Virus record (IMG/VR): IMGVR_UViG_3300009537_001521
Location: 1 to 37,562 of that record
Origin: a virus
DNA: 37,562 bases
Direction: 5' to 3' (one strand)
The notes beneath the pieces are model-generated. The model was not told the DNA's origin, ran no database searches, and saw nothing but the letters and a program-made list of their open reading frames with translations. Position 1 is the stretch's first letter. Each line of letters starts with the position of its first letter. This document shows positions 391-24,700 of this stretch, piece after piece. The position numbers and the translations under genes were made by a program.

Positions 391-993
391 ATGTCGACCG
401 TCTTTCAAGCACTCAGCCTCCCAATTGGGGGGTCCGTCGTCCAACTCGATAACGTCACCGTCGCCGCCAAATACCCGGCCAGCAATGGCAAGAGCGGCAC
501 CGGCAAACGCCAGCGCAACATCCAAGTGTCTGACGCCTCGGGCACCATCAAGGTGAGCCTTTGGGGTGCGGCAGCCGATCTCCCGATCATGGACGGCAGC
601 GTCATCACCATTCGGGGTAACCTGAAACGCGGGGAATACCCGGCAGGCACGCCCCAACTCTCCGGTGAGGCTGGAATCACCATTGTAGCGCCCGATGAGT
701 CCGCAGTGGCGTCCAATCCCGCCGCCTACGCCCAAACGTCCGCAGCGGCTTCCCCGCAGAGCGCAATGGGCCATGTGAGCAAGGTTGCCCTCAACGACAT
801 CCAGCTCGCCCGGCGTCAGGCGGAGTTCACCATGGAATACATGGCGCAGCTCGTCGATTTGGGTGCGTCCAAGGAATTTGCGGAACGCGCCGCCATTCAC
901 GCTCCGCAACATGCCAGCCAATGGTTCTTCGGAGAGAAATACCCCGAAAAGGCCAACCTTCCTGACCAACAGGAAGAGGAATTCAACGGCTGA
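391..993 (+). CDS. OB-fold single-strand DNA-binding-like protein
   Basis: A 200-residue protein. Its first 110 residues read as an OB-fold nucleic-acid binding domain: VVQLDNVTVAAKY, then SDASGTIKVSLWG (around residues 47-59), then the strand-rich IMDGSVITIRGNLKRGEY. The pattern of a modified or conserved 'SD.SG.I.v.LWG' strand is characteristic of RPA/SSB-type OB folds. The C-terminal 65 residues are helical and end in an acidic tail (EEEFNG), as SSB-type proteins often do. The likely role is coating single-stranded DNA during phage replication. The leader upstream of the ATG is a long run of A and C with no Shine-Dalgarno sequence. No specific phage SSB family could be assigned by eye. Confidence 0.6.
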   Translation: MSTVFQALSLPIGGSVVQLDNVTVAAKYPASNGKSGTGKRQRNIQVSDASGTIKVSLWGAAADLPIMDGSVITIRGNLKRGEYPAGTPQLSGEAGITIVAPDESAVASNPAAYAQTSAAASPQSAMGHVSKVALNDIQLARRQAEFTMEYMAQLVDLGASKEFAERAAIHAPQHASQWFFGEKYPEKANLPDQQEEEFNG

Positions 994-1651
994 AAAGACA
1001 CCTTGCAGACAAAGGGATTGCGGCGGCGCTGTTTCGTTGGTCAACTCATACCCCTGTTCCGGCCAATCGCATAATGCCGGGACCTGCATCCTCTTTCACC
1101 GTGCTCCAGCCAGCCAATCGTGATATACCCCAAATCTCACTCCGAAAGAGTCGAGGCGTCACGGTTGCGTCAACGGGCTTAATCCTCTGGATTTTCCGGG
1201 GGGCGTTGGCGGCGGTGAATCCACCTTTGTTTCCCTCCTGACTGAGACAGTCGTTAATCAAAGCAATCTGAGAGCTTATGGGGATAGGTTCCAGCGCTAG
1301 CCTACAGCGTGATCGGCGAACGGGACGCAATGACGTAGGACCCCGAGACAGACCGGAGAGACGGTCACTCAATTTCCCCAAACAATGACCACTGAAGCAA
1401 TACCAGCGAACCGTGTCTCGACGGAGACAATCCTCAACCTGTGAGCTTCCTAAACCAGACTAAATCCCCGGCGCGATTGCCTGATCAGGTGTGCGGGGCT
1501 CTGTCGCAATGCCCTACTACGTTGTCTGGATCGTACAGAATGTAGGGAGTGGTCACCTCTTTCCAATACAATGCGGCGCGTGTGCGCAGAACATCCACTC
1601 TTGATTGGTAGTTCAAATGTCGGATTAAGCTCCGAGCGTTGCCGCACCTCC
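994..1651 (+). ncRNA. Candidate structured non-coding RNA in the only long gap
   Basis: Between the OB-fold gene and the gene at 1670 there are about 660 bases with no convincing reading frame in a window that is otherwise packed. The stretch is dense in short perfect hairpins: TTCCGGC with GCCGGGA (about 1057-1082), AATCC-TCT-GGATT (1181-1193), GGTG-AATC-CACC (1214-1225), GACTG-AGA-CAGTC (1240-1252), GACCG-GAGAGA-CGGTC (1351-1366), TGTCTC-GACG-GAGACA (1414-1429), a CCCC-G-GCGCG/TGTGC-GGGG stem (1466-1498), CCCTAC with GTAGGG (1512-1547) and GCGC-GTGT-GCGC (1576-1587). CCAGAC (1455-1460) can pair with GTCTGG (1524-1529) inside another loop, a possible pseudoknot. The strand is assumed from the neighbours. 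It could also be a replication origin or a degraded gene; no named RNA class was recognised. Confidence 0.35.
1450..1464 (+). repeat. Degenerate copy of the dispersed 15-bp palindrome
   Basis: CTAAACCAGACTAAA matches the consensus TTTAGYC-N-GRCTAAA at 12 of 15 positions, with an intact right half (GACTAAA) and a damaged left half. It lies inside the hairpin-rich non-coding stretch. It may be a weak or decayed site, or chance. Confidence 0.25.
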
Positions 1652-1666
1652 TTTAGCCTGCCTAAA
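1652..1666 (+). repeat. Dispersed 15-bp palindrome, copy 1 (start-codon proximal)
   Basis: TTTAGCCTGCCTAAA, one mismatch from the consensus in the right half. It ends 3 bases before the ATG at 1670, so it occupies the position where a ribosome binding site would be. The same variant recurs at 4166. Confidence 0.85.
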
Positions 1667-1669
1667 ACC

Positions 1670-3147: not shown

Positions 3148-4161
3148 ATGTCAGCTGGAATCCAAGAGAGAGACCTACAAACCGCGCTGGAACAAGCGTG
3201 GCACGGGCAAACGAACATCGTCCTTGAAGTGACGCGGGACAATTCGATGCCATTCGAGATCATCGAGGCTCCCATCCAATACAAGGTGGACCGTCTTGAC
3301 GAATTCGGCACCCCCGTCGAAATCGTCATCGAAGACCCCAACTACAAGCGTCTCATCGCCAGTGACGACCTCAAGCCAATCGGGGAACCGTTCGCCAAGA
3401 GCTACTGCCCGTCCTCCATCGCCCAGTTCTGGGAAATCATCCGCAAGGGCATGGGAGAGACCCCCTACAAGGTGGTGAGCGCCGGAACCGTGGATGACCG
3501 CTGCAAGCTGTTTGCCTCGATCAAGGTGAGCGACGGCTTCCACATCGGAGAGCGTGAGTTCAAGGACTACATCACTCTGATCGACAGCTTCGACAAGACC
3601 ACCTCTTTACAGGCCCGCTACTCGTCCATCTGCGTGGTCTGCGCCAATACTTACGCGATGGTGATGAATTCCGGCACACAGCTTGGTAAGGCCAAACACA
3701 CCGCCTTCATTGACCTGAACGTGGGACGTCTCATTGACGCAATCAATGCCTTTGCCGGGACTAGCGCCTCCAACAAGGCGATGCTGCAACGTGCCTACCA
3801 GACGCCATGCAGCCGCGATGAGGCCCGCGCATGGATTACAGGGCTGGAAGGACGCAACGCCCCCGCATCAGGACTGACCAATGGGATGTTGCAGAAAACC
3901 GCACGCATGGTGGAGTTGTTCGACCAAGGCCGCGGCAACCAAGGGCGCACCCGCTTGGATGCTTTCTCCGCAGTTACCGACTTCCACTCGAATGAATCGA
4001 CAAACCGCAAGGGTGACGGCGCGCAGCATTACACCAGCGAATGGGGCGCATCGGCACAGGTGAAGAACCTTGTCGCTACCCGCTTCGAGCAGGACTGGGA
4101 GAGCAATGTGCGGACGGGCGAAGGCCTGTTGGCGCGTGACAAGGCCGTGCTGGTGTCCTGA
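3148..4161 (+). CDS. DUF932 (TIGR03299-like) phage/plasmid protein
   Basis: A 337-residue protein. Diagnostic stretches include the YKRLIASDDLKPIGEPFAKSYCP region, the GAGTVDDRCKLFASIKV-like strand (VDDRCKLFASIKVSDGF, around 115-131), DYITLIDSFDKTTS, CVVCANTYAMVM (about 160-172), and the helical C-terminus with WGASAQVKNLVATRFEQDW. This order matches the DUF932 family found in phages and plasmids, usually next to recombination or replication genes. Its biochemical role is unknown. The leader CAACAACAACAAAGAAAGAACCAATAAT-type A/C-rich run precedes the ATG. A palindrome copy follows 4 bases after the stop. Confidence 0.75.
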   Translation: MSAGIQERDLQTALEQAWHGQTNIVLEVTRDNSMPFEIIEAPIQYKVDRLDEFGTPVEIVIEDPNYKRLIASDDLKPIGEPFAKSYCPSSIAQFWEIIRKGMGETPYKVVSAGTVDDRCKLFASIKVSDGFHIGEREFKDYITLIDSFDKTTSLQARYSSICVVCANTYAMVMNSGTQLGKAKHTAFIDLNVGRLIDAINAFAGTSASNKAMLQRAYQTPCSRDEARAWITGLEGRNAPASGLTNGMLQKTARMVELFDQGRGNQGRTRLDAFSAVTDFHSNESTNRKGDGAQHYTSEWGASAQVKNLVATRFEQDWESNVRTGEGLLARDKAVLVS

Positions 4162-6192: not shown

Positions 6193-6558
6193 ATGGACGC
6201 CGACCAAATACCGCCCGAACTCGACAAGGACGCTCCTCGGAATTCCATGCAGCGTTTTGTTCGGCATTGGGACAGGTTGCACTGGGCCGTGGGAATGCGG
6301 TCAAAATCCCGCAAGCCGGATGAGATGTTGATCGGGGTGTCATGGCATAAAATCACGCCCCCGATTTATGAAGGCGAGCCATCGCGCCCGCTTCTATTCC
6401 ACACCCGCTCCCAAGCTCGAAAATGGTGTGCGGCAAAAACTATCGAATGCGCCCGCCATTCACCGGACTGGAGGTTCCGCCCGGTGAGAGTTCGCGAAAT
6501 GATTTTGCCGAACGTCGGAGCCCTCCCGCCCGTAACCCCTGAAAGGATACTGCCATGA
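6193..6558 (+). CDS. Hypothetical protein, about 121 residues
   Basis: The ATG at 6193 follows the previous stop by 4 bases; an ATG at 6163 in the same frame would add 10 residues and overlap the previous gene by 26 bases. The product contains a basic segment (GMRSKSRKPDEMLIGVSWHK), tryptophans and an SQARKWCAAKTIECARH helix. No family recognised. Its TGA (6556-6558) overlaps the first possible ATG of the primase-helicase frame. Confidence 0.55.
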   Translation: MDADQIPPELDKDAPRNSMQRFVRHWDRLHWAVGMRSKSRKPDEMLIGVSWHKITPPIYEGEPSRPLLFHTRSQARKWCAAKTIECARHSPDWRFRPVRVREMILPNVGALPPVTPERILP

Positions 6559-6608
6559 TGCCCAAAAGATTATTCAACCATTCACACAACACAGAAAGAT
6601 ATTCACCC

Positions 6609-8444
6609 ATGAACAAACTTGAAGCAAAATTTTACGACCTGCAACAACTCAAGGACGCCCTAGCCGGGCGCATTGATGAGTTTTGCATCACCCTGTTTCC
6701 AAATGCCCACCGGGAGAATAGCTGTTACAAGATCGGCAACCTCCAAGGCGAGAAGGGTTCGTCGCTGATGATCTCCACCCGCTCCACCAACCCCGGCTGG
6801 TTTGTCGACTATGCCGATCCATCGGTCAAGGGGCACGCGTGGCGCTTGGTCTCGCTGGTTAAGGGCATTTCGCTCAAGGAGGGTATCGCGTGGCTGGCCA
6901 ACTTCGTCAATGTCCCGCCTATCCAGAGCTTCGGTAACATTAGTCAGGCTAAAAATCCCGAGAAACTCGCCGCCAAAATTCTGACCCTCAACGAACGTTC
7001 CATTGCCTTCGCGGCGGCGCGTGGAATCACCGAGGAAACCCTGCTCAAATACGGAGTAGGCTCCGACTTGCGAGACGGACTCGTCTTTCCCTACTACGAC
7101 GCTTTTGACAACCTAGGAATGCTCAAGCACTGGGGTCACAAGCTCAGGGATGACGGCAAGAAAGACACATGGACCTCGCCAGAGCCCATCATGAGCTTGT
7201 TCGGCAAGGACGTCTGCGACCCGGAGACCGGCCTCCAAAGGCTCACCATCACCGAAGGAGAGTGGGACGCCATGGCGTGTTGGCAGCTTGGCATCCCCGC
7301 CGTCTCCATCCCGATGGGTGTCTCCAACATGCAGTGGATTACGGAGGACTACCAATTTCTTTCCCATTTCGACGAGATTGTCTTGTTGTTTGATACAGAC
7401 GAACCGGGGAAGAAGTGTGCGAAGGACGTCGCGGCACGTCTGGGGACCGAGCGATGCATTGTCGCCACCCTACCCCTCAAGGACGCCAACGACATGCTCA
7501 AGGCCGGGCGGGGTGGAGAAATCCAGAACATCATCGACACCACCACCAAAGAACCCATCGCCGAGATTGTCGATCCTTCCTCGATGAAAGAGGGGGTGAA
7601 GAGCTACATGAAGGGCGAGCACCTTGTGGATGGAGACCCATTCTTTCTGCCAGCATTCGACATGTCATTCCGAAAACACGAAATCACCCTGTGGTTTGGG
7701 TTTTCGTTTCATGGGAAATCGCAAAGCGTGCAGAACCAGATGGCTTTTTTGGCGAGCAGGGGCAAGCCGTGCTGCGTCGCGTCGTTCGAACAACCACCCG
7801 AGCTCACTTTTGCCCAGATCATGACGTGCATGACTGCTTACCCCAACATGCCATTCACCGATGAATTTGACAAAGCTTACGACTACACCAGCAGGAACGT
7901 CTTCATGTATAAGAGCATGGAGAGGGCTGATCCGAAGCACCTCATCTCAACCTTCATCCACGCCCATAAGCGCTACGGCATCGACACCTTCGTTATCGAC
8001 AACGTCATGACCATGAGCATCGACCGTGGAGACAACACGGCACAGGCGGATGCTATGGACGGACTACGGACATTCGTGGCAAAGTATCCCGTCCATCTCC
8101 ATATCGTGGCGCACCCGCGCAAGCCTCCTGAAAATACCAGCAAGCCACCCGGAATGGCCGAAATCCGAGGCGCATCCGAATGGGGAGACATGCCCCACAA
8201 TATTGTGACTGTCTGGAGGGACATGGTGAAAGCCGAAACCTTGGCCGAAATGGAGAACAATAATTTCTCTGACGGCGACATGAAAGACTTCTTCAACTCC
8301 ACTCCATGCGGAAAACTCATTGTTCGAAAACAACGCACCACCGGAGAAACCCCAATGACTTCTTTCTGGTTCCACAAGGAATGCAAAAGGTTCATGAGCA
8401 AACCCGGAGAACCCAACCCGATGTATTCCACCAAACCGTGGTAA
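6609..8444 (+). CDS. Primase-helicase (TOPRIM plus DnaB/RecA-type helicase)
   Basis: A 611-residue protein from ATG 6609. An ATG at 6555 would add 18 residues, but the bases between are an A/C-rich leader like those of other genes. The N-terminal ~120 residues resemble a primase zinc domain fold (PGWFVDYADPSVKGHAWRLVSLV) but lack the usual cysteine quartet. The TOPRIM domain has the catalytic Glu in TITEGEWDAMA (about residue 216) and the DxD in LLFDTDEPGKK (about 261), with LPLKDANDMLKAG after it. The helicase domain has Walker A GFSFHGKSQ (Lys about 370), SFEQPPE, Walker B FVIDNVM (about 464), and HIVAHPRKP. It resembles T7 gp4/Twinkle enzymes, which unwind the fork and make primers. A palindrome copy lies inside the gene at 6939. 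Confidence 0.9.
   Translation: MNKLEAKFYDLQQLKDALAGRIDEFCITLFPNAHRENSCYKIGNLQGEKGSSLMISTRSTNPGWFVDYADPSVKGHAWRLVSLVKGISLKEGIAWLANFVNVPPIQSFGNISQAKNPEKLAAKILTLNERSIAFAAARGITEETLLKYGVGSDLRDGLVFPYYDAFDNLGMLKHWGHKLRDDGKKDTWTSPEPIMSLFGKDVCDPETGLQRLTITEGEWDAMACWQLGIPAVSIPMGVSNMQWITEDYQFLSHFDEIVLLFDTDEPGKKCAKDVAARLGTERCIVATLPLKDANDMLKAGRGGEIQNIIDTTTKEPIAEIVDPSSMKEGVKSYMKGEHLVDGDPFFLPAFDMSFRKHEITLWFGFSFHGKSQSVQNQMAFLASRGKPCCVASFEQPPELTFAQIMTCMTAYPNMPFTDEFDKAYDYTSRNVFMYKSMERADPKHLISTFIHAHKRYGIDTFVIDNVMTMSIDRGDNTAQADAMDGLRTFVAKYPVHLHIVAHPRKPPENTSKPPGMAEIRGASEWGDMPHNIVTVWRDMVKAETLAEMENNNFSDGDMKDFFNSTPCGKLIVRKQRTTGETPMTSFWFHKECKRFMSKPGEPNPMYSTKPW
6939..6953 (+). repeat. Dispersed 15-bp palindrome, copy 4 (intragenic)
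   Basis: ATTAGTCAGGCTAAA, one mismatch, inside the primase-helicase gene where it is read as ISQAK. Its orientation is opposite to most sense-strand copies. Confidence 0.75.
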
Positions 8445-12700: not shown

Positions 12701-15700
12701 TTACCAGCCATGACGCCTTGTCTTGTCCCTCGTCTTGTCGTCCAAATCGTATTGAATGCTTGTCCGAAGCTCACGAGGTGAAACTCCAAATTCCGCCAAC
12801 GCGTAAATGATTGGTTCAATCCATGATACATCCTTGTCCATCGCCGACTTCGCTGTCAAAATTCCAGCATTCGCATAATCATGCAGCACTGCCGTAAAAG
12901 CAACGGAATCCATCACGTCTCCAAAGGCTGATTGATTGAAAGAACCAATCTCAATGCGGTCACGTTCGGGCATCCGCTCGTTCACTCCACGTTCAAGACG
13001 TTCGCCAAGCAAGTCAGATATAGCAGAAGCCAGTTCCTCATTAGCCTTTCGGTTGGTCTTCCCAACTAGCTGGGTGAATGAAGAGTATCCAGACAATACC
13101 CCAGCATAAGGGATAACCTGTGCCAATTCCTGACTCACCTTTGAGCCAAGTGTGGCCCATGCTGAATACCGTGAAGCCCGCATGTCCTTCTTAGTGCTGA
13201 ACAACTCCTTGGCGGGTCCCATTATCAATGGCTTGTAAACCTTCTCAAGAAAGTTGTCGTCTTTTTGCTCCTTCATGATCTTGTTTGACCACTTCTGAGC
13301 TTTCCTTGCCGCTTCGTCGTCATCGTCTCCCATGGCCTTCATCACGAGATAACCAGCCAATGGTAGCAACACCTCAAACTTCATCAATTGGAAACCAATG
13401 TTCTGGACCATCGTTCCAATCAGGTTCTCGGCAGCCTCACGGCGCATACCCTGATCCTGTCCAAACAACGATGGAATCAACGCGGTGGCATTACTAGCAG
13501 TGGTTGCAGTGTGGTTACTGAAGCGCACCATCGTTCTTGCAACGTGTTGGAGAGTGGGTGATTGGCTGGACGACTGGAACAAAAAGGCCTTTTTTGCTTG
13601 GTCTGATTGCCCCATGTGGTCGCTCACCTTGATCTGAGCAAGTTGCACTGCCAAATCTGGAATTTGATCTTTTGGCATACGCAACAACTCGTCCATCGTT
13701 TTGGGAGCTCGATCTCCGATGATCTTTTTCATCTCAATCATCAACTCGGTCATGAAGATGGTTCGTGACAAGATGCGCTCCACCTTCGCAATCGCAAGGT
13801 CCATACCCTTCTCTTGCAAGTTCTTGATCCCCTCGCTCATAAACCCAATCCCTTGAGACAGCTTGTTGCTTCCAACGGGGACCTGTGTGCGAATCAATCC
13901 TTCATAGCGGTCAAATCCTTCAGCTCCACGACGGTGGACCATCGGACTGACAAGACGGACGAAATCAACAATCTGATCACTACGCTTCTTGCTATTGCCT
14001 TCACCGTCATACACATCTCCCGGCAAGGCCGAGGAAAGCGAATTAGAAACCACTTCTCCAAAATTGGTCATCATCAATCCAAGTTCACTGAATTGTCCAG
14101 TGAAGGCTTTCTTCATGATTAATCCAACCATCGAGGGAGCCGATTGATTCCACATCTGACGCAATGAAAACAAAGCCCTGAAAATGAACGTGCTGCCAAG
14201 AAACTCCAACGTCTTGGAAAATTTGGTGTTGTGCACCCCCATCTGGGAATCATTCATTACGTCGTTCTCAATCTCCCGCGCTAAAGCCGCCAAGGTAACC
14301 TTCCATGTATGATGGTCGAACGACTCCGTTTTGATCGAGTTACCTTCTAGAAGTCGTGGAGCCCCTGTCACGGTAGGCAAACCACGAGTATATTCCTCCT
14401 TGCCAATCAACTCACGCAAGATGGCGTAATTAGCAGAGACATTCACACGATCCACCGTATCACGAATCATCGAAAGCGGTGCGCTCAGACCATTCAGGTC
14501 AATGATCTTGAAGACGTTGTTCTTGTTCTGGTTAAAGGCACGACGCCCTCCTTGGCCTAGAAGCGACGATTCTTTGAGAGAGGTCTTCTCCAACGGATCG
14601 TTGGTGTATTTACCTTCTCCCAATTTCACCCGCTCGACGTGTGGATTGGCGGCAAAATGAGACCTCAACGGAACAATACTGCCAAATTGGGTTTGCGCAT
14701 CCATTCCCACCACCATCGACTTACTCGGTGATTCTTCCTCGCTGACTTCGGCACTCCTACTCAGGATGGCCTTGCTGTATTCAAAGGCATCGGTCATCTC
14801 CTTAAAGATGTCGAGCAACTCATTGGAATATTCCTCAATACCGGCCAGAACCTTGTCATCTACTCCGATTTTCAGCGCGTCCACCGTCTTCTGAATGTAT
14901 TCCATGGCCATCGCGTCTTGCGCGACACCGACATTTGCCGTGTTGCTCTTAGGAACATTATTCAAGTATTCAGAAAGCGTAGGTTTCAGGAGTTCAAACA
15001 TTTGTTTTACTCCAGCCCTTTCACCCACTACATCCGCATGTTTGGCATTGAAATATCTGCTCACCCTGTTGTAGCGGCTCTTCTGAGCCTTCTCGTAACG
15101 AATGAGATCATTGTAAGTTCCTTGGAATCCGCTGATCCAATTAATCAAGTTCTCGTGGGTGGACCCTCCTCGGGCCTTGGTGATACCTTGAAGACTCGCA
15201 ATGACGTAGGCCCTACTGTGGTTGAGCCAGTTGGTCCCAAGGCCCTTGGCAGCCTTCTCAAGACGCTCCTTGTAAATGATTTCGTCAGTCTTCGATCCGT
15301 CACGACCGGACTGGCCGTCAAAGCCCTTCTGGAGATACGAGAGGATGCGCACCGCCTCCTGCCATGCAGCCTTATTCTTACCGAACATTCGACGAACTCG
15401 TGCATCTTGGTGATGAAGGTGGCGCAGCATCCAGATTTCCGCGTTACCAATGTTCCCCGCAATACCAGTGACAAGACGACGCATGATGTGTTGACCTTCA
15501 ATGTCTCCAAACACCTTGGCATAAAGACGAATGAGATTCATCTCCTGCATCTGGGCGTCTCCTTTGGAGAACGTTCCTTGATCAATATCCATCAAAAACT
15601 GCATCACCTCCTTGCGGGTGGTGTCGAGCATCTTGGAATTGGAATCAGTGGCATAGACCAATCCACGAATAATGTGAGCGTATTGTTTTCTTACTTTCTC

Positions 15701-18700
15701 CATCATCCACCCACCACCAACTGCCTCACCCTTGGAACGACCGTCATCAAGCCGCATCTTGTCGTTCATCCACTTGATAATTTGGTTGTGAAAACCATCG
15801 GCAAACCCGGTAGCTACCTCACCCAATGTCGGAGCCTTGCCCTCTTTCGAAAGAGCTTTAGTCAGGCTAAAATCATCCCACCTACCTTTGGGGTTCCATG
15901 GTTTAGCGATGGTGTCAGGGTCTGTGCCAAGATTGTAAGCCTCATAAGACCCCTCCACTTCATGGTCAGGAGAGCTCGCGGCATTAAGAACAATGCCCTT
16001 GAGGGCACTGTCTACGTTTTCGTTTGACCCAGTGCCTCCAAAATATTCCGCAAGGTTGTCCTTGGCGTCAATAGGGACAAACAACACCTTCGTGCCATCA
16101 CCCGCATCAGCAATGTGGCCAAACATCGCGCGACGTGCCTCGTAGTTGGCTGGCTTGCGCAACCGGGCCACCCGCTTGTCTCTCACCGACATAGCGACAA
16201 GGTTATCATCTTCCGCAATCATTGCCTGAAGATCGGCGCTAATAACGTGTCCCTTGGTGATGCTACGCTGTTGCGCCAAGCGTGCCTTGTTCACTTCGGT
16301 CTGGACGTCCATCACGCTCATCGCCTGCGTAATCATCTTCTGATGGTTGAAATCACTGATGTAGTTGAAATCGTTGCTGAGCATCTTGTAGGTGTCCCAC
16401 GCCCGTTCCCGCACGAACGAATCAATGGCACGCTTCAGTGCCTGTGACCGAATGTAGAAGTTACGGTAGTGATCATCATGCAGGTCGAAGTCGGTTTCAT
16501 TCCAGTCAGGAACAAGTGCAAGAGGCAGGGACGAACGCTCCCGCTCCTCCACAATCGCGGAATCATCCTTGAAGTCGTCGATGAGCGAACCGAGCTCCAC
16601 CCCGTCACTATCGTGCTTCGTGGTCCATGCCAACTCTCCTTGCAGTTTTCCAAGCTCCTCTTGAGAAAGATCGATGTCAGATTGCAGATCCTTGATTGCT
16701 TTAGCGTCTGCGTGCTTGGCGAGCCTCACCTTGTCGGCAGGGTCTATAACGAAAGACTGGAGAAGTTGCCCAAATGTCGTGGCCACTTCAATGTCGACTG
16801 CTTGTCCATATTCAAGGAGAACCCTTCTAAAGACACCTTGAACAGCATTCTCTATCGTTCCCCTAATGTCTCCTCTTGGGGACTCTTCAGCAATGGCTTT
16901 CCGCGCAATGTCGAGAAGATCCTTAACGATAGGATTGGCGTAATCCTTGATGGGTTGCCCATCATAATCTCTCTTTCCTCTGGTCTTGTCGCGGCGGATA
17001 GGCTTGTTGGTTTTCTTGCCTCCAAGAACTTCCTCAGCATTAAGGACCAATGAATTGAGGGCCGTAAGGAATTCATTCGTAATCTCCTCACGATGCTGTT
17101 GCTGCTCCAATGCAAACAAGTTTTCTTCTGCCTTCGGGCCTTTTGAAAACAAACCATTCACCTTCGAAAGTTCACGGGTAACATTGACACGTTGACCGGG
17201 TTGCAACGGCTTAAGGCGAATTAGCTCCGCTCTCTCACTATATTTGGGACCGTAGAGCCCATTTGCGAAGGCCTTCAGCAACGAGTTGAAAGTCTCGTTC
17301 ATGCTCTGGATGACGGCATTCACCTCGCCAATCGCATCCAACTCAGTAGTAGATGTGATCGAACTAAAGACGTCGTTGTCACCGCTAAGTAGACGTTCGG
17401 TTTCCTCTGCGATTGGTGCACTTTGCGCCCGATCAAGGACTATCAAAGCAGTGCGGTAACGATCTCGCAACCCACGAACTATCGGGTTGTTCGCAGAAGT
17501 CGAGAATGCCTTTGCCAAATAGGCAGCCCTTATGTCCATATCAACCGCCCGCTCGTGCACGATTTGTGCAAGGGTGTCGACAATCTGGTTCTTGAGTTTC
17601 TGAATAATCTCCCCCTGTTTTTCTCTGTCGTCGTCGTTGATTTCGAATGAGTTGAGTTGGTCGATGAGTTTGGTTTGTTGGTCTTTTTTCGATTGAATGA
17701 GGTATTTGAGGTAAGTTTCACGTTGAAGTAGCTCGTCAATAGCCCGTTGCACCAACACCTCCTGTGCCTCGACGTAACCCGGAAGACGGTCTTTTACATT
17801 TTGATACAAGGCATCATCCAAAACAATCCCCAAAGGTTTGTCTCCAAGAACACCGCTCAAACTAATTCCAAAATCGTCTTCAGTCCGACGCATCGCATTG
17901 TATTTCTCGCGCAACCGAGCAATCGCAACCGGAGTCTCTCCAATCATGCTCATCAATCCCGCACGGAATTGAGCCAAGGTAGATTCACGATAGAAGGATG
18001 AGGCAGCCAAGCGGTTGCCCGGTAGTGATGGCATGGCAAGGTTTAACCCACCGCCCATGTAAGCCGCTCCACGACTCCTGAATCCACCAAGCTCCTGCAA
18101 TACGGGCATCTGTCGATTCCTTGACAGCGTCATGTTGCGTGTAACAAGGGATGGTCCAACGAATGGTTTGACCGCGTCCCTCTCATCTTTAGTCAGGCTA
18201 ACGAGCCCGGCCAAGAGGTTGACCAATCCGATGTCAGCATTACTGATCCCATAGAGAGCGCCCTCGGCCTGCTCGAACTCGGAGACATTTTGAAAGACCT
18301 TGTCGAACAACTTCTCGAACTCGCCTTGTTCAAAGTCACCATGGAAGCTCTTGTCTCGCAACATTGCCCGCATAGCCATGAGCAATGAACCCCGCATGTT
18401 GTAGCGTGAATACCTTGCTCGGTCGTTCTCGGTGAGGTTGGAAATATCTACCCCTCGCTCCTGAAGGTAGGTTCCCATTTCCTCCAACGTCTGAAAGATC
18501 GGCTTCGATTCGTCTCCCTCGAAATCCTTGGAAATGTCGTCCTCCTTGATTGGCAAGATTTCGCCCATTTGTGGTTTGTCCATGGCCAAGACTGAGTTCA
18601 CCAAGGCCTGTTGCAGCGCTGCATAGTCATCTCCTAGATTGATTAGACTGTCAGAGCGCCCAATGGATACATCCGCATAGAGCTTATAGAGGCTGGGGTT

Positions 18701-21700
18701 GGTCACCAGCTCGGCAAGGAACAGGGCATTCTCGGCGCTGGTGGCTGCTGTAGAGCGGGCGATACGCCCTACGGCACTCTGATCCACCCCGGTGGTGCTC
18801 TCTCGCTCCATGCCCTGCCCAAAAGCTGGCATCGTAGTCTTCACGTCCCTACCATCATCGTCGCGTTTGGCGAGATTCCGAAGGCGATCCATGGAGGACT
18901 CCACATTGTCCAACACTTGGACCATCTCCCCCGCTTTCATCAAATGTCCATGCAAGATGGAACGGAAAATCTTCTTTTGTTGTGCGTTAAACTCTCCTTT
19001 GTCGTCAAATGCCTTCTCAAACAAGTCCATCTCGCCTTCGATGGTTCCAATGTTGTCGTCATACTTCTGAGCCATCTCAGACAAAAGGCGCACCTTGTTC
19101 ATGTCGGAGCGAACACCTCCAATAAACTCATTGAGCTTGGCTGCCGCTTCGGGATTGGTTCTGGCCAGATGATTGGCCGCTTGAAGGACCATCGAAAATA
19201 CGTTGCCACGCCGTTCAGTGACAGAGCTGGTCTGAACCTGTGGTGCGAAAATGACGTTCGGTTTGCCGTTCTTCCCAGCGATAAACAATGGCTTGGTTGT
19301 GCCGTTGTATCCTCGCAAATCCAACTCAGATGGTGCGAAAATCACCGTATTGGGAATCAACTGAAGCATAATGTGATGAATTCCCATCTCACTCTGACCA
19401 ATATACCCAACACCAGCATCCAACAAGCCACGAGCATCAAATAAAGGAACAGCTCCACCTTTCATCATCAACTTGTGTAACAACTCGGCAACCCCAGCGA
19501 TGTCCTTCGGAGTGGCGGAGATGTAGTGAGCCAAGTCGTCAAACGGATTGGTCTCACCGTGCTCCTCAGTGTAGGACTCCATGAACGAAGTGTTGTCCTT
19601 CTCGATACGGCCCCTGAGTTTCTCCACGCTCTCCAAAGCAGTGCCAGCAAGCACTGGGTTTTTGGTCTCGCCGCTCTTTGCATAGGCAAAAGCCGCTTCA
19701 AGGATGGACGCAAGCGCATGGGTGGAAGTTTCCCGACGGCCAATCATCACCTTCTCCATGAAGGCGTCTTCTTTCTTCACTTTGAATTCAAGAACGGTGC
19801 GAAGGAAGGTTTCTGGATCAATCCTGTGTTTCAGATCGTTCTCAAAAACATCCCCTGCATACGGATCAAATGTCCACTCAGGATGAATCGAGTAAAACTC
19901 CTTGAGCAGTTCAGCCAGCTTCTGCTTGTCGGCATCAGAGTTACCAATGCTGAACACGCCAATGATGGCGCGTCCTGTCAGACTATGGATGGTTTCCTTC
20001 GAAGAACGACCAAGCGCGTAGTCTGAAAGATCGAACAAGAATTGCCGTCCGGCGTGCGCCTTTGTGCCGTTTCCTAAGTTGCCAACCATCATCGCAGCAA
20101 TCGTGATGGCCCGGCGACGCAATTGATTTGGCAAGTCCTCCTTCTTGATGGAGCGATCCAATGGCAGCCCCATGAAATCGCCAACAAGGTAGTTCTCGCT
20201 GCCTGCGGTGCTCACATTGCCGGGGCGTCCATCCATGTCGGGTTCCATCACCTCAGACTGGCGATAGACAATATCACCGTTGCGTAGCATCCGCGCAGCC
20301 TCGTTCTCCCAGTCACCCTTGGCAAACACTCCCAGAAGCTCTTGAGCATAGACCGCTCCCATCCGCAACCTTGAACGCTCGTTCAAATTCTGGAACATCC
20401 ATGTCAGATTGTCCAAAGCCTTCTGGTCAATTTGTTGTTCACGCAGCGCCAGCATCGCCTTCCAGCTTGGTTTGAAGGACAAGTCGGACGACGTGCGCTC
20501 CATCTCTCGATTAACACTAATGCGGAAACGACTGTCGGTGAATTCTACCAATGCGTGACGGGCACCGGACAAATCGTTCGAAAGAAGACGAAGACCAATG
20601 GCCAAATCCCCAAAAGAAGATTGATTCACTCCCTGACCTTCAGTGAACACCGCTTCGATATTCTTGCTTCCGTCGTCCAAGTCCCTGCGAGCGGAAACAA
20701 AAGCATTCTCATGCGAATCAATCACCTCCCTCAGTTCTGAAATGCGCTTTTGAAGCAATGGGCTAAACCATCCAGCAAGGGTGGTGTTGCCGCCAAGCTT
20801 GCTAACCACGCTGGAACGTCCGCTATCGGTGTCGTTGATGGCACTCTCAACTTTGTCCAGCCACTGCTTCATCCCATCGAGCATCTCGCTGTAGGACATG
20901 GTCACCTTCACTGTCTCGCCGCCTTTTTCTACGGTAGTGCCGTCCAGAACATTTCGGAAGTTCTCAGCGTCAAACTTCTTGTTGTCGACCAAGCTCCTGA
21001 ATCTGTTGAAGTCTTTAGTCAGGCTAAACAGTGGAAAGATTTCCTTTGCTCCCTTGAGCCCGATACGCCCGGTATCCTCGTTGACCGTCATCTCGGAGGC
21101 GAACCCACCCGTCACCGTGTAAATCTCATACTCCGCCACATTCACCAGCCCAAGACGATAAGCCAAATTAAAGCGCATGTAGGAATCTCGCCCCGCCTTG
21201 TAGGAATTATTCATGAAACGACGATGCAACGTGGCGTAGGCCTTGCGCTCGTCCGGGTTCTTGGCAAAGCGACGACGGGGTTGACCCTTGCCGACAGTGT
21301 CCTGATCGTTGCGCTCGTTCTGAATACCATTGCCGTCAGGGACATTGTAGCCAAGCACCTCGCTCAAGCTCGTTGGATCTCCCTCAGGCATCCACTGGGC
21401 CTCGTCGACGTAGGGATTGCCCTTCTTATTCACAGCATTGGTGATCCAATGGATGGCGAAATCACGACGATCCAAATCTCCCTCGCCAATAGCCGACTGG
21501 GCAAAGAAACTCACGCTCTTGTTATAAATACTCAGGGCCTTAAGGTAGGCGTCGTATTGGTCGTAACGCCGATCAATCATTTCCTGATCCACTCCAATCT
21601 TCTTCCGGAGCATCGCAGCCTCTAAGGTGTATTTCTCCGCAAGGTCAATGTCACCCACGTCTCTAAGTATCGCAGCCATCTCCTGATGCGCAATCATCTT

Positions 21701-24700
21701 GTTTTCAGTTTCTGCCCACTTAACGGCGTGCACAGTGGCCAATCCTTGTTGCTTACGCTGCGCTGTAAGGAGCTTGTCGATGTTCTCTGAGGGTTTCACC
21801 CCAAGACGATCTGCGAGCTCTCCAGAGACCAATCCGGGAGTGCCTGAGACCAACACCTGCAATGGTGATTCACCGGGCTTAAACACCGGCTTCCCGTCTG
21901 CATCCCTCTCAACGTCATAGATAGCGTCACTATTAAGAAGAAGGTTGACGTAATTCCCAAAACGATTCTTCCAAACCTCACGGGCCTTGTAGTAGGTGTT
22001 GATCTTGGTTGGCTCAAACACAGATCGTGATTCACCAAGCCAAGAAGAAATAGTCCCAATCGCACGCTCAAACAGGAGAGGCTCCGCATATTTGCCCTTT
22101 GCGATGTTCTCTTCACTTAATAAAGCATTCGGATCATAGGACAAAGCAGGAAGAATGATGGCTTTCTCGTCTGCCGTCATCGTCTTCTTGGCTCGCACTG
22201 CCTCACGTGCCTTGGCAAGAAGAGCAACCGCCCGTTGATCCCTACGGTTCCGCTGGATCTTCTCAAACTCCGCATCTAACTCAGATTCAATCCCTTCACG
22301 AACTTCTGGAAGCGGCTCTACAAAGCCAAGTTTCCGAGCAGCCTCCATCATCCTCACCGTGGTATGCGGATTGGCATTAAGGATTTGAGCAGCGGCTTCC
22401 ACATCACGACGGACGTTGTCGCTCTCCACCTGCTCTGCCAGCTTCTCCACCTCATTCTTGGCGTGCTGATAAAGGGCGAAGTCCGTAAGATCCTTGGGAG
22501 CGCTATCAATAATTGAGGCAAGCACGCGCAATGGATTCTCATCTCCCTTTTTAATGTCACTCCATTCAAATAGTTGCGAAGGATCAAACTCCAATGCGTC
22601 AATAGCGGCATCGAGAGCCGCCTTGTTGTGGACAATCATGCCCAACGACGAGCCAAAGGAATTGATGTCATTTAGCTCGGCTAAAGCAGTGTCAATGAGA
22701 GCCAAGTCAATGTTCTCATGGTAAGCCGCAATGTGTTCTCTCACCCCCTCGTCCAGAGAGAGTTCCATCTTGTCGTAATCAAACACAAGGACCTGCTCCA
22801 GTTTCATTCCCATGAGCGCCGGAATCATCCTCAACTGGACCAAGCCGACAGAGTTCTGGGCCGCCACATCACCCACTCTCTCACGTTCGCTCTCAGTGTA
22901 GCCCAGAGCCGTCTCCTTGACTTCCTTGGCAAACTTCTGGCTCATGTCCTCAATGTCACCCATAAGGCCCTTCTGAACGTATCTGGAGTGCATCCGCTGG
23001 AGCATCGAGCGTTGCAATGGGGTCATCTTCTTCTGAAGCGCTCGCACACCAATCATTGTCCTGATCTTCTCACCATAGCGCATCACCATTTCACGAATGG
23101 TATTGATGAACCCACCGAGATTGTTTGCCTTCTTTCCAATCTTGGCAACATCGTCACTAATGGCCAGCGCGGCAAGACGGGCGTTATACATCGTCTGCTC
23201 CGCAGTGGTACCGGAGAAACGCATCTGGTGGAGCTTGCGCAGCATTTCGGACGCAATGTTCTCCTTGCCCAAATTCACTTCCTTTTCGAAGCGGGCGTGG
23301 TCAAACACTCCATTGGCGTCAACGTAGGACGGGTAGCGCTCCTTGAGTGTGCGGTCCGAAATCTCCTTGATGAAATCAAAAGCCTCCTTGTTCTGGCCCT
23401 TTTGCCTCTTCTGGGATTGGTCATAGAACTGCCTGAGCTCCTCGGCCTTGAACTCCTTGAGACCAACCACGTGAGTGAGCTCTTCGTCCACCACCCCTGC
23501 AATGACCCGTGCCACCTGACCTGCCATGAAGACGTCCGCCTGTGCGTTCCCGTGGGCGCTGTAGTGGCCTAGATGCTTGCGAAGGTGAGCAACCAAATTC
23601 TGGTAATCCACCTTCACAATTGGAATCAAAGCTGTTTCGAACTCGGTCGCCTCGGAGACAGGAGCCTCAACCGTGATGGTCTCAAACAAAAGCTCACCCT
23701 TTGAATCAACATCCTGGAGTCTGACCCTGTCCATCTTTCTTGTAAACTGGAACGGATTTCTTACCCGAACTCCCTTGGTATCGATGTAAGAATTTTTGAC
23801 GCGTTGCCCTTCCGTCGTCTCCGTATCGAAATGCCTGCCATTCGCTAGTGACGACTCAACAAATGACGTCACATTCACTCCCGGTGCCACCTGCTTCAAG
23901 ACCTTGGCAACCACACTACGCATCTTGGCGTTGCTCATGGTCTCTCCATCCACACCCAAAATACCCTTCAAATCACCGACAATCTGATTCGCAACTGCAT
24001 CCAAACGCGAAGCAAACCACTTCGAGCCTGACTGGCCAAGCGCCTTCCAATTGCCCTTTCCGTCCACCATCTTGGCAGGATCAAGGAGCTCGAAGACATA
24101 GTGCCAACCAGCCGCGCCCTTGAACGAGTCGGTCATCACAAGGATGCGCGGGCTCTTGCCAACGGTCGTAATCACCGTCCCTGCGGGGAAGTCCATGCGC
24201 GAACCCTTGGGAGCAACGTAGGTGTAGGACTGGGACGAGGAGGTTGCCACAGCAGCTCCCTTCTTCCAGTGACCATTCTCCGACTCGTAGTTTGGATCGG
24301 GGGTGGCGTTTTCAATCACCTCGTCAGCAACCGTGTAGGAGGGTAAGGTAGGATCGGCAGCGTCATAAGAACCGGGCTTCTGGGCCAAAACTTCTTTTTG
24401 AGGGCTTTCGTCTTCAACAGAAAGTTCAGGAAAGACCTTGTCCATGGTCTGTCTCTTTGCTTGCTCCTTTTGCTCCCCACTGATTCCAGGGACAGCTTCA
24501 ATCCTACCTTCAATTTCAGATTCAATTTCTTCTTTTGTCTGTCCCTTCTTTTTCCTTGCCGTGCCTAAAGCCGCCAGAGCGTTGACCATTACCAACAAAC
24601 TAGCATCGGATTTGTTGACGGGGCTCATTGGAGCAGTTTTCGCCACGACATTCGACGGAAGATGGCGATAGCCCAGCACACGGTCTTTTGAGAAAGCTGC

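Follow-up and report, generated by a model that had tools for sequence, protein, structure and literature searches.

GOLLD and ROOL are ornate RNAs that can be abundant and whose function remains open. GOLLD is a large, phage-encoded structured RNA of modular build, with a variable part, a conserved 3′ part, and sometimes an embedded tRNA, and ROOL, also a phage RNA, is about 600 nt long, complex, furnished with pseudoknots, and of unknown function (PMC12286853). The present study examined a noncoding region at positions 994–1669 (+ strand) of a 37.6-kb virus record, the whole of which is called the window here and which is probably a fragment of a phage of ~70 kb; the longest related records measure 61–76 kb, and one of these (G001) apparently has a short direct repeat at its end. 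An earlier note, made from the letters of the window, had proposed a structured RNA in this region, and homologous noncoding modules with compensatory changes, found at an equivalent position in related phages, support that proposal. The region is very probably a diverged member of an uncatalogued family of large (0.3–1.3 kb), modular structured RNAs of ~70-kb environmental phages, a family drawn from some 15 to 20 phage records of one group and represented in the window by a copy of which only about 80 nt are homologous beyond doubt.

The gap contains no credible gene, as the earlier note had stated: the SSB-like open reading frame ends at 993, the next likely start codon is the ATG at 1670, preceded by a TTTAG...CTAAA leader, and the RNA itself probably spans about 1001–1653. 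Both hairpins that had been quoted are present (TGTCTC-GACG-GAGACA at 1414–1429 and GACTG-AGA-CAGTC at 1240–1252), but the claim of at least nine perfect hairpins was not borne out: five were counted (stem of at least 5, loop of 3–8), where 500 dinucleotide-shuffled versions had 3.09 ± 1.77 and 98 of them reached five. Elsewhere in the window, 13 of 53 stretches had as many. The folding energy of the gap was likewise unexceptional against shuffles (z of −1.26 and −1.14 on the + strand and +1.36 on the − strand). With count and folding energy both within the range of the shuffles, the hairpin richness of the gap is by itself no more than chance would produce. Nevertheless, two of the hairpins (1351–1366 and 1620–1635) fall on helices that are supported in relatives. 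Covariance searches of the gap against Rfam 15 matched no family even at E ≤ 10, GOLLD and ROOL included, so the note's restraint in assigning the region to either was justified. The catalytic core of group I or II introns was not matched at E ≤ 10 and neither was HEARO/IscB omega RNA, and the downstream HNH gene encodes 149 aa that match HNH families only, not an IscB with RuvC and HNH. No promoter-like site, iterons, or tandem repeats were found at the gap, no tRNA in the window, and no recognizable homology for 994–1340. DNA searches of the phage collection with this gap and with that of L172 returned no match, and a search of the open-access literature found no report of the RNA family.

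The gap is flanked upstream by an OB-fold, SSB-like gene (391–993, +; Pfam tRNA_anti-codon OB fold, E 0.003, below cut-off; 49% identity to L132:5503–6018), which occupies a slot before the RNA that is conserved in relatives. Downstream lie a small ORF of 71 aa (1670–1885, +) that differs among relatives and two conserved neighbors, an HNH endonuclease gene (2272–2721, +; PHROG 3106, E 6.5e-16; 64–68% identity in relatives) and a DUF932 gene (3148–4161, +; PF06067, E 1.8e-14; 57–80% identity in relatives). With the primase-helicase (6555–8444) as query, 20 related viral contigs were retrieved at 64–85% identity, and further relatives were gathered through alignments of the SSB-type and DUF932 proteins. 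Many of them retain the order SSB-type gene, gap, HNH, DUF932, primase, and their equivalent gap consists of about 330–1270 nt (328–1267) of noncoding sequence, without a likely gene and made of shared modules; no reading frame is conserved in it among relatives, whereas a conserved frame is what the earlier note had named as counting against an RNA. The position after the SSB-type gene is common to the RNAs of L122, L127, L128, L132, L133, L134, L140, L289, and L195, of which that of L289 extends to about 2641, beyond the called gap. Searches of prokaryote genomes for hosts or prophages by the primase gave distant matches only (24–37%), and a search of viral contigs for the SSB-like protein gave none.

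Several further observations were made at these loci. Two very different OB-fold SSB-type proteins occupy the equivalent slot upstream of the RNA across the related phages, those of the window (391–993) and L127 (3781–4251) sharing 21% identity over the matched part. A near-palindrome, TTTAGCCTGCCTAAA, lies between the RNA and the next gene (1652–1666, +); written as TTTAGYCNGRCTAAA and with one mismatch allowed, it occurs 16 times in the window, where 0.41 copies would be expected, at sites that include 1652, 4166, 4400, 9319, 11463, 12686, 15857, 21014, 30585, 34065, and 37430. These sites are often directly upstream of start codons and also fall within the giant gene; other forms of the element occur in relatives, and it may be a repressor operator, a stoperator, or an RNA processing hairpin. 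The giant gene is a reading frame of 5788 codons (12701–30067, −) that takes up 46% of the window and has counterparts of 5487 codons in G001 and 5978 in G012. Long gene-free stretches, delimited with a rough gene finder, were also seen in relatives, at L324:2904–4072 (1.2 kb) and L328:16955–18328 (1.4 kb), and may be either further RNAs or genes that the finder missed. A 353-nt gap in L158–L171 was rejected as a further RNA, since it reads as a missed HNH gene.

The clearest homology of the window copy is to module B, a three-way junction at the 3′ end of the region (1571–1649, +) composed of P1 (TGCGGC-GCG/CGTTGCCGCA), P2 (GAAC/GTTC), and P3 (CGGA/TCCG). A covariance model, R2, that was built from six relatives with the window left out gave 54 bits at these positions (E 4e-10 in a search of 438 kb, E-values of the covariance models being rough because of short calibration), whereas the six relatives themselves scored 90–121 bits and the next unrelated match 13.6 bits. 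The junction in the window keeps the CAAAUGUCGG...CCGAGCG core, and 18 other viral stretches, preselected for matching the 17-base core, reached at most 16.2 bits with R2. Pairing is preserved through two-sided change in P1 (UGCGGC/GCCGCA in the window against UCCGGC/GUCGGA) and in the last pair of P3 (A-U in the window against G-C). Compensatory changes were present in 4 of 15 pairs across seven sequences, several of them closely related, and 1 of 500 shuffles reached the covariation score. A pattern scan for more copies of module B found none outside the known phages, and the matches to a 14-mer pattern, GACTGAGACAGTCG, were dismissed as chance.

Module A consists of a GAAAGA-loop hairpin, a variable stem, ACCG, a hairpin with the loop UAGCGUCAAG, and a hairpin with the loop AUACGGUAA. 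In terms of helices it runs from the P1 hexaloop hairpin through P2, ACCG, and P3 to P4 with its CGGU loop. When 20 distinct copies were aligned to its covariance model (R1), 18 of 19 pairs had compensatory changes and 96% of cells were paired, a result that none of 500 shuffles reached and that compares with 18–40% pairing for slid partners; model-fitted alignments are biased towards structure. In a MAFFT alignment of eight copies (A3), which was not fitted to the model, 10 of 21 pairs were changed on both sides, two pseudoknot pairs among those tested being set in the wrong register. A pseudoknot between ACC(G) and (C)GGU is possible in nearly every copy with letters there, and one compensatory change, in L269, preserves it. 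The window retains a remnant of this module (1345–1372, +), the hexaloop hairpin GACCG-GAGAGA-CGGTC at 1351–1366 (pair probability 0.95), which corresponds to the P1 hairpin and whose helix covaries across the 20 distinct copies; P2, P4, and the pseudoknot are unrecognizable. R1 matched 1345–1429 at 13.5 bits (E 0.058 in 503 kb) and, with the 851-base region alone and filters off, at E 1e-4. The comparison with relatives that the earlier note had suggested as a check has in this way turned up compensatory changes in both modules.

A third module, module C, is only suggested. It has a GNUCUG/CAGGNC closing helix, after which come CACC and a U-rich stretch, and RNAalifold on five sequences gave compensatory changes in 5 of 16 pairs. 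The window has a C-like domain (1386–1555, +) that is closed by a perfect 8-bp helix, TGACCACT (1386–1393) with AGTGGTCA (1548–1555), at pair probabilities of 0.75–1.0, and that includes the hairpin at 1414–1429. This helix and the CACCUCUUUCC that follows it resemble the closing end of module C, and two weak collinear profile matches point the same way; the module C model itself matched the window weakly (10.6 bits, E 0.02 over 851 bases). At 1551–1564 (+) lies GGTCACCTCTTTCC, a motif seen again where RNA units end in relatives, there as GGYCACC and then a U-rich stretch. In L289, a second, diverged tandem copy of module C lies in the same RNA (2130–2215).

Likenesses to ribosomal and transfer RNA were found in some relatives. 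The RNAs of L122, L145/L150, and L266 contain GTTGGCTTAGAAGCAGCCAT, whose 20 nt are identical to E. coli 23S 1059–1078, the L11 site (E 2.8e-5 to 1e-3), and in each the best rRNA score exceeded those of all 30 shuffles. These hairpin copies lie inside noncoding RNAs, at L122:2778–2797, L145:4244–4263, and about 2168–2187 on the reverse complement of L266. A tRNA-like cloverleaf with a perfect TTCGAAT T-arm and an extended anticodon side, for which ARAGORN makes no call, is placed inside the RNA at about 1548–1645 of L289 and at the matching place in L195 (minus strand). The window copy has neither the hairpin nor the cloverleaf, and its rRNA score of 13 is reached by 24 of 30 shuffles (mean 13.7). 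A general rRNA mosaic in all members was rejected as unsupported against shuffles, and module A, once suspected of being an rRNA derivative, had no rRNA match. Because the window copy has no significant rRNA resemblance, a link to translation would be a lead for the family, drawn from sequence likeness in relatives, and not a result for the window locus.

Across the related phages, modules are shared, their position is conserved, covariation is at the RNA level, and no reading frame is present; modules have also been gained, lost, duplicated, and relocated, with three copies of module A in one gap of L127 and copies at two separate loci in G004 and G008. That the gap is an ordinary unstructured intergenic stretch or a decayed gene fits its shuffle-like energy and hairpin count but is highly improbable in view of the out-of-sample match to module B, with its pairing preserved, and the low scores of the preselected decoys. 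A replication origin or other DNA-level element beside the SSB-like gene, which the earlier note had offered as its alternative, would suit the adjoining replication genes, yet it is just as hard to credit: iterons and tandem repeats were not found, G-U pairs and compensatory changes are part of the pairing, which is conserved at the level of RNA, several copies occur per genome at unrelated loci, and in G001 the cumulative GC skew has its minimum far away from the RNA, although the skew in that genome tracks gene orientation. A cis-acting leader that controls translation or stability of the following gene is unlikely, if less so. Module B ends about 20 nt upstream of the ATG at 1670 and the RNAs of several relatives likewise end before a start codon, but the modules stand before different downstream genes in different relatives and at several unrelated loci within single genomes, and a length of up to 1.27 kb with an embedded tRNA-like domain would be unusual for a leader. 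In L266, as observed once, the RNA begins behind genes of the opposite strand and therefore needs its own transcription start there. Taken together, these placements of the modules make an RNA that acts in trans more likely than a leader, an intron, or an origin.

We infer that such an RNA would come from the + strand, transcribed together with the replication genes or close to them, would fold into consecutive independent domains of which the last is the three-way junction, and would act in trans as a phage noncoding RNA in the manner of GOLLD and ROOL without being a member of either. It might, more speculatively, engage the translation machinery, an idea prompted by the copy of the 23S GTPase-center hairpin and the tRNA-like cloverleaf in RNAs of relatives. 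One version of this idea, in which the RNA is a decoy or mimic of rRNA or tRNA and titrates ribosomal proteins, translation factors, or host nucleases that attack rRNA or tRNA, is doubtful but the least improbable of the rival readings: besides the L11-site hairpins and the cloverleaves, the best non-family match to module B in 438 kb is 16S 1080–1099 (E 1.3), and the ends of RNA units look like CACCUCCUU at the 3′ end of 16S. These 16S resemblances are not significant by themselves, however, module A is without an rRNA match, and the window copy, like most relatives, is no more rRNA-like than shuffles. A new family built partly from copies of rRNA and tRNA elements and acting on the host translation apparatus, or on defenses that target it, is a similarly tentative prospect that we would not expect to hold.

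The trans-acting RNA favored here resembles GOLLD in being large, phage-encoded, and modular and in the tRNA-like element of two relatives (L195 and L289), but it differs in that neither the window nor L127, L122, or L289 gave a match to the GOLLD covariance model (gathering threshold or E ≤ 10), in its conserved motifs, and in lying outside any tRNA island in the window. A further trait of GOLLD is its homo-oligomeric cage. With ROOL it shares a size of about 600 nt, the character of a large phage-encoded RNA and, in module A, a pseudoknot, but there is no Rfam match and the conserved motifs differ; ROOL is encoded in phages or prophages, often near tRNA genes, and here the window, which is phage DNA, has no tRNA and L289 has a tRNA-Arg about 0.8 kb downstream of its RNA. 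The 23S GTPase-associated center is matched by the exact 20-nt hairpin in the RNAs of three relatives, which hold the hairpin only, with the rest of the domain missing, and not by the window copy. The L11-site hairpin of these members offers a concrete, testable link to the ribosome. In working style the closest systems would be GOLLD and ROOL (PMC12286853), beside which these RNAs apparently constitute a further family of large phage RNAs, absent from Rfam 15, whose clear modules change places among loci.
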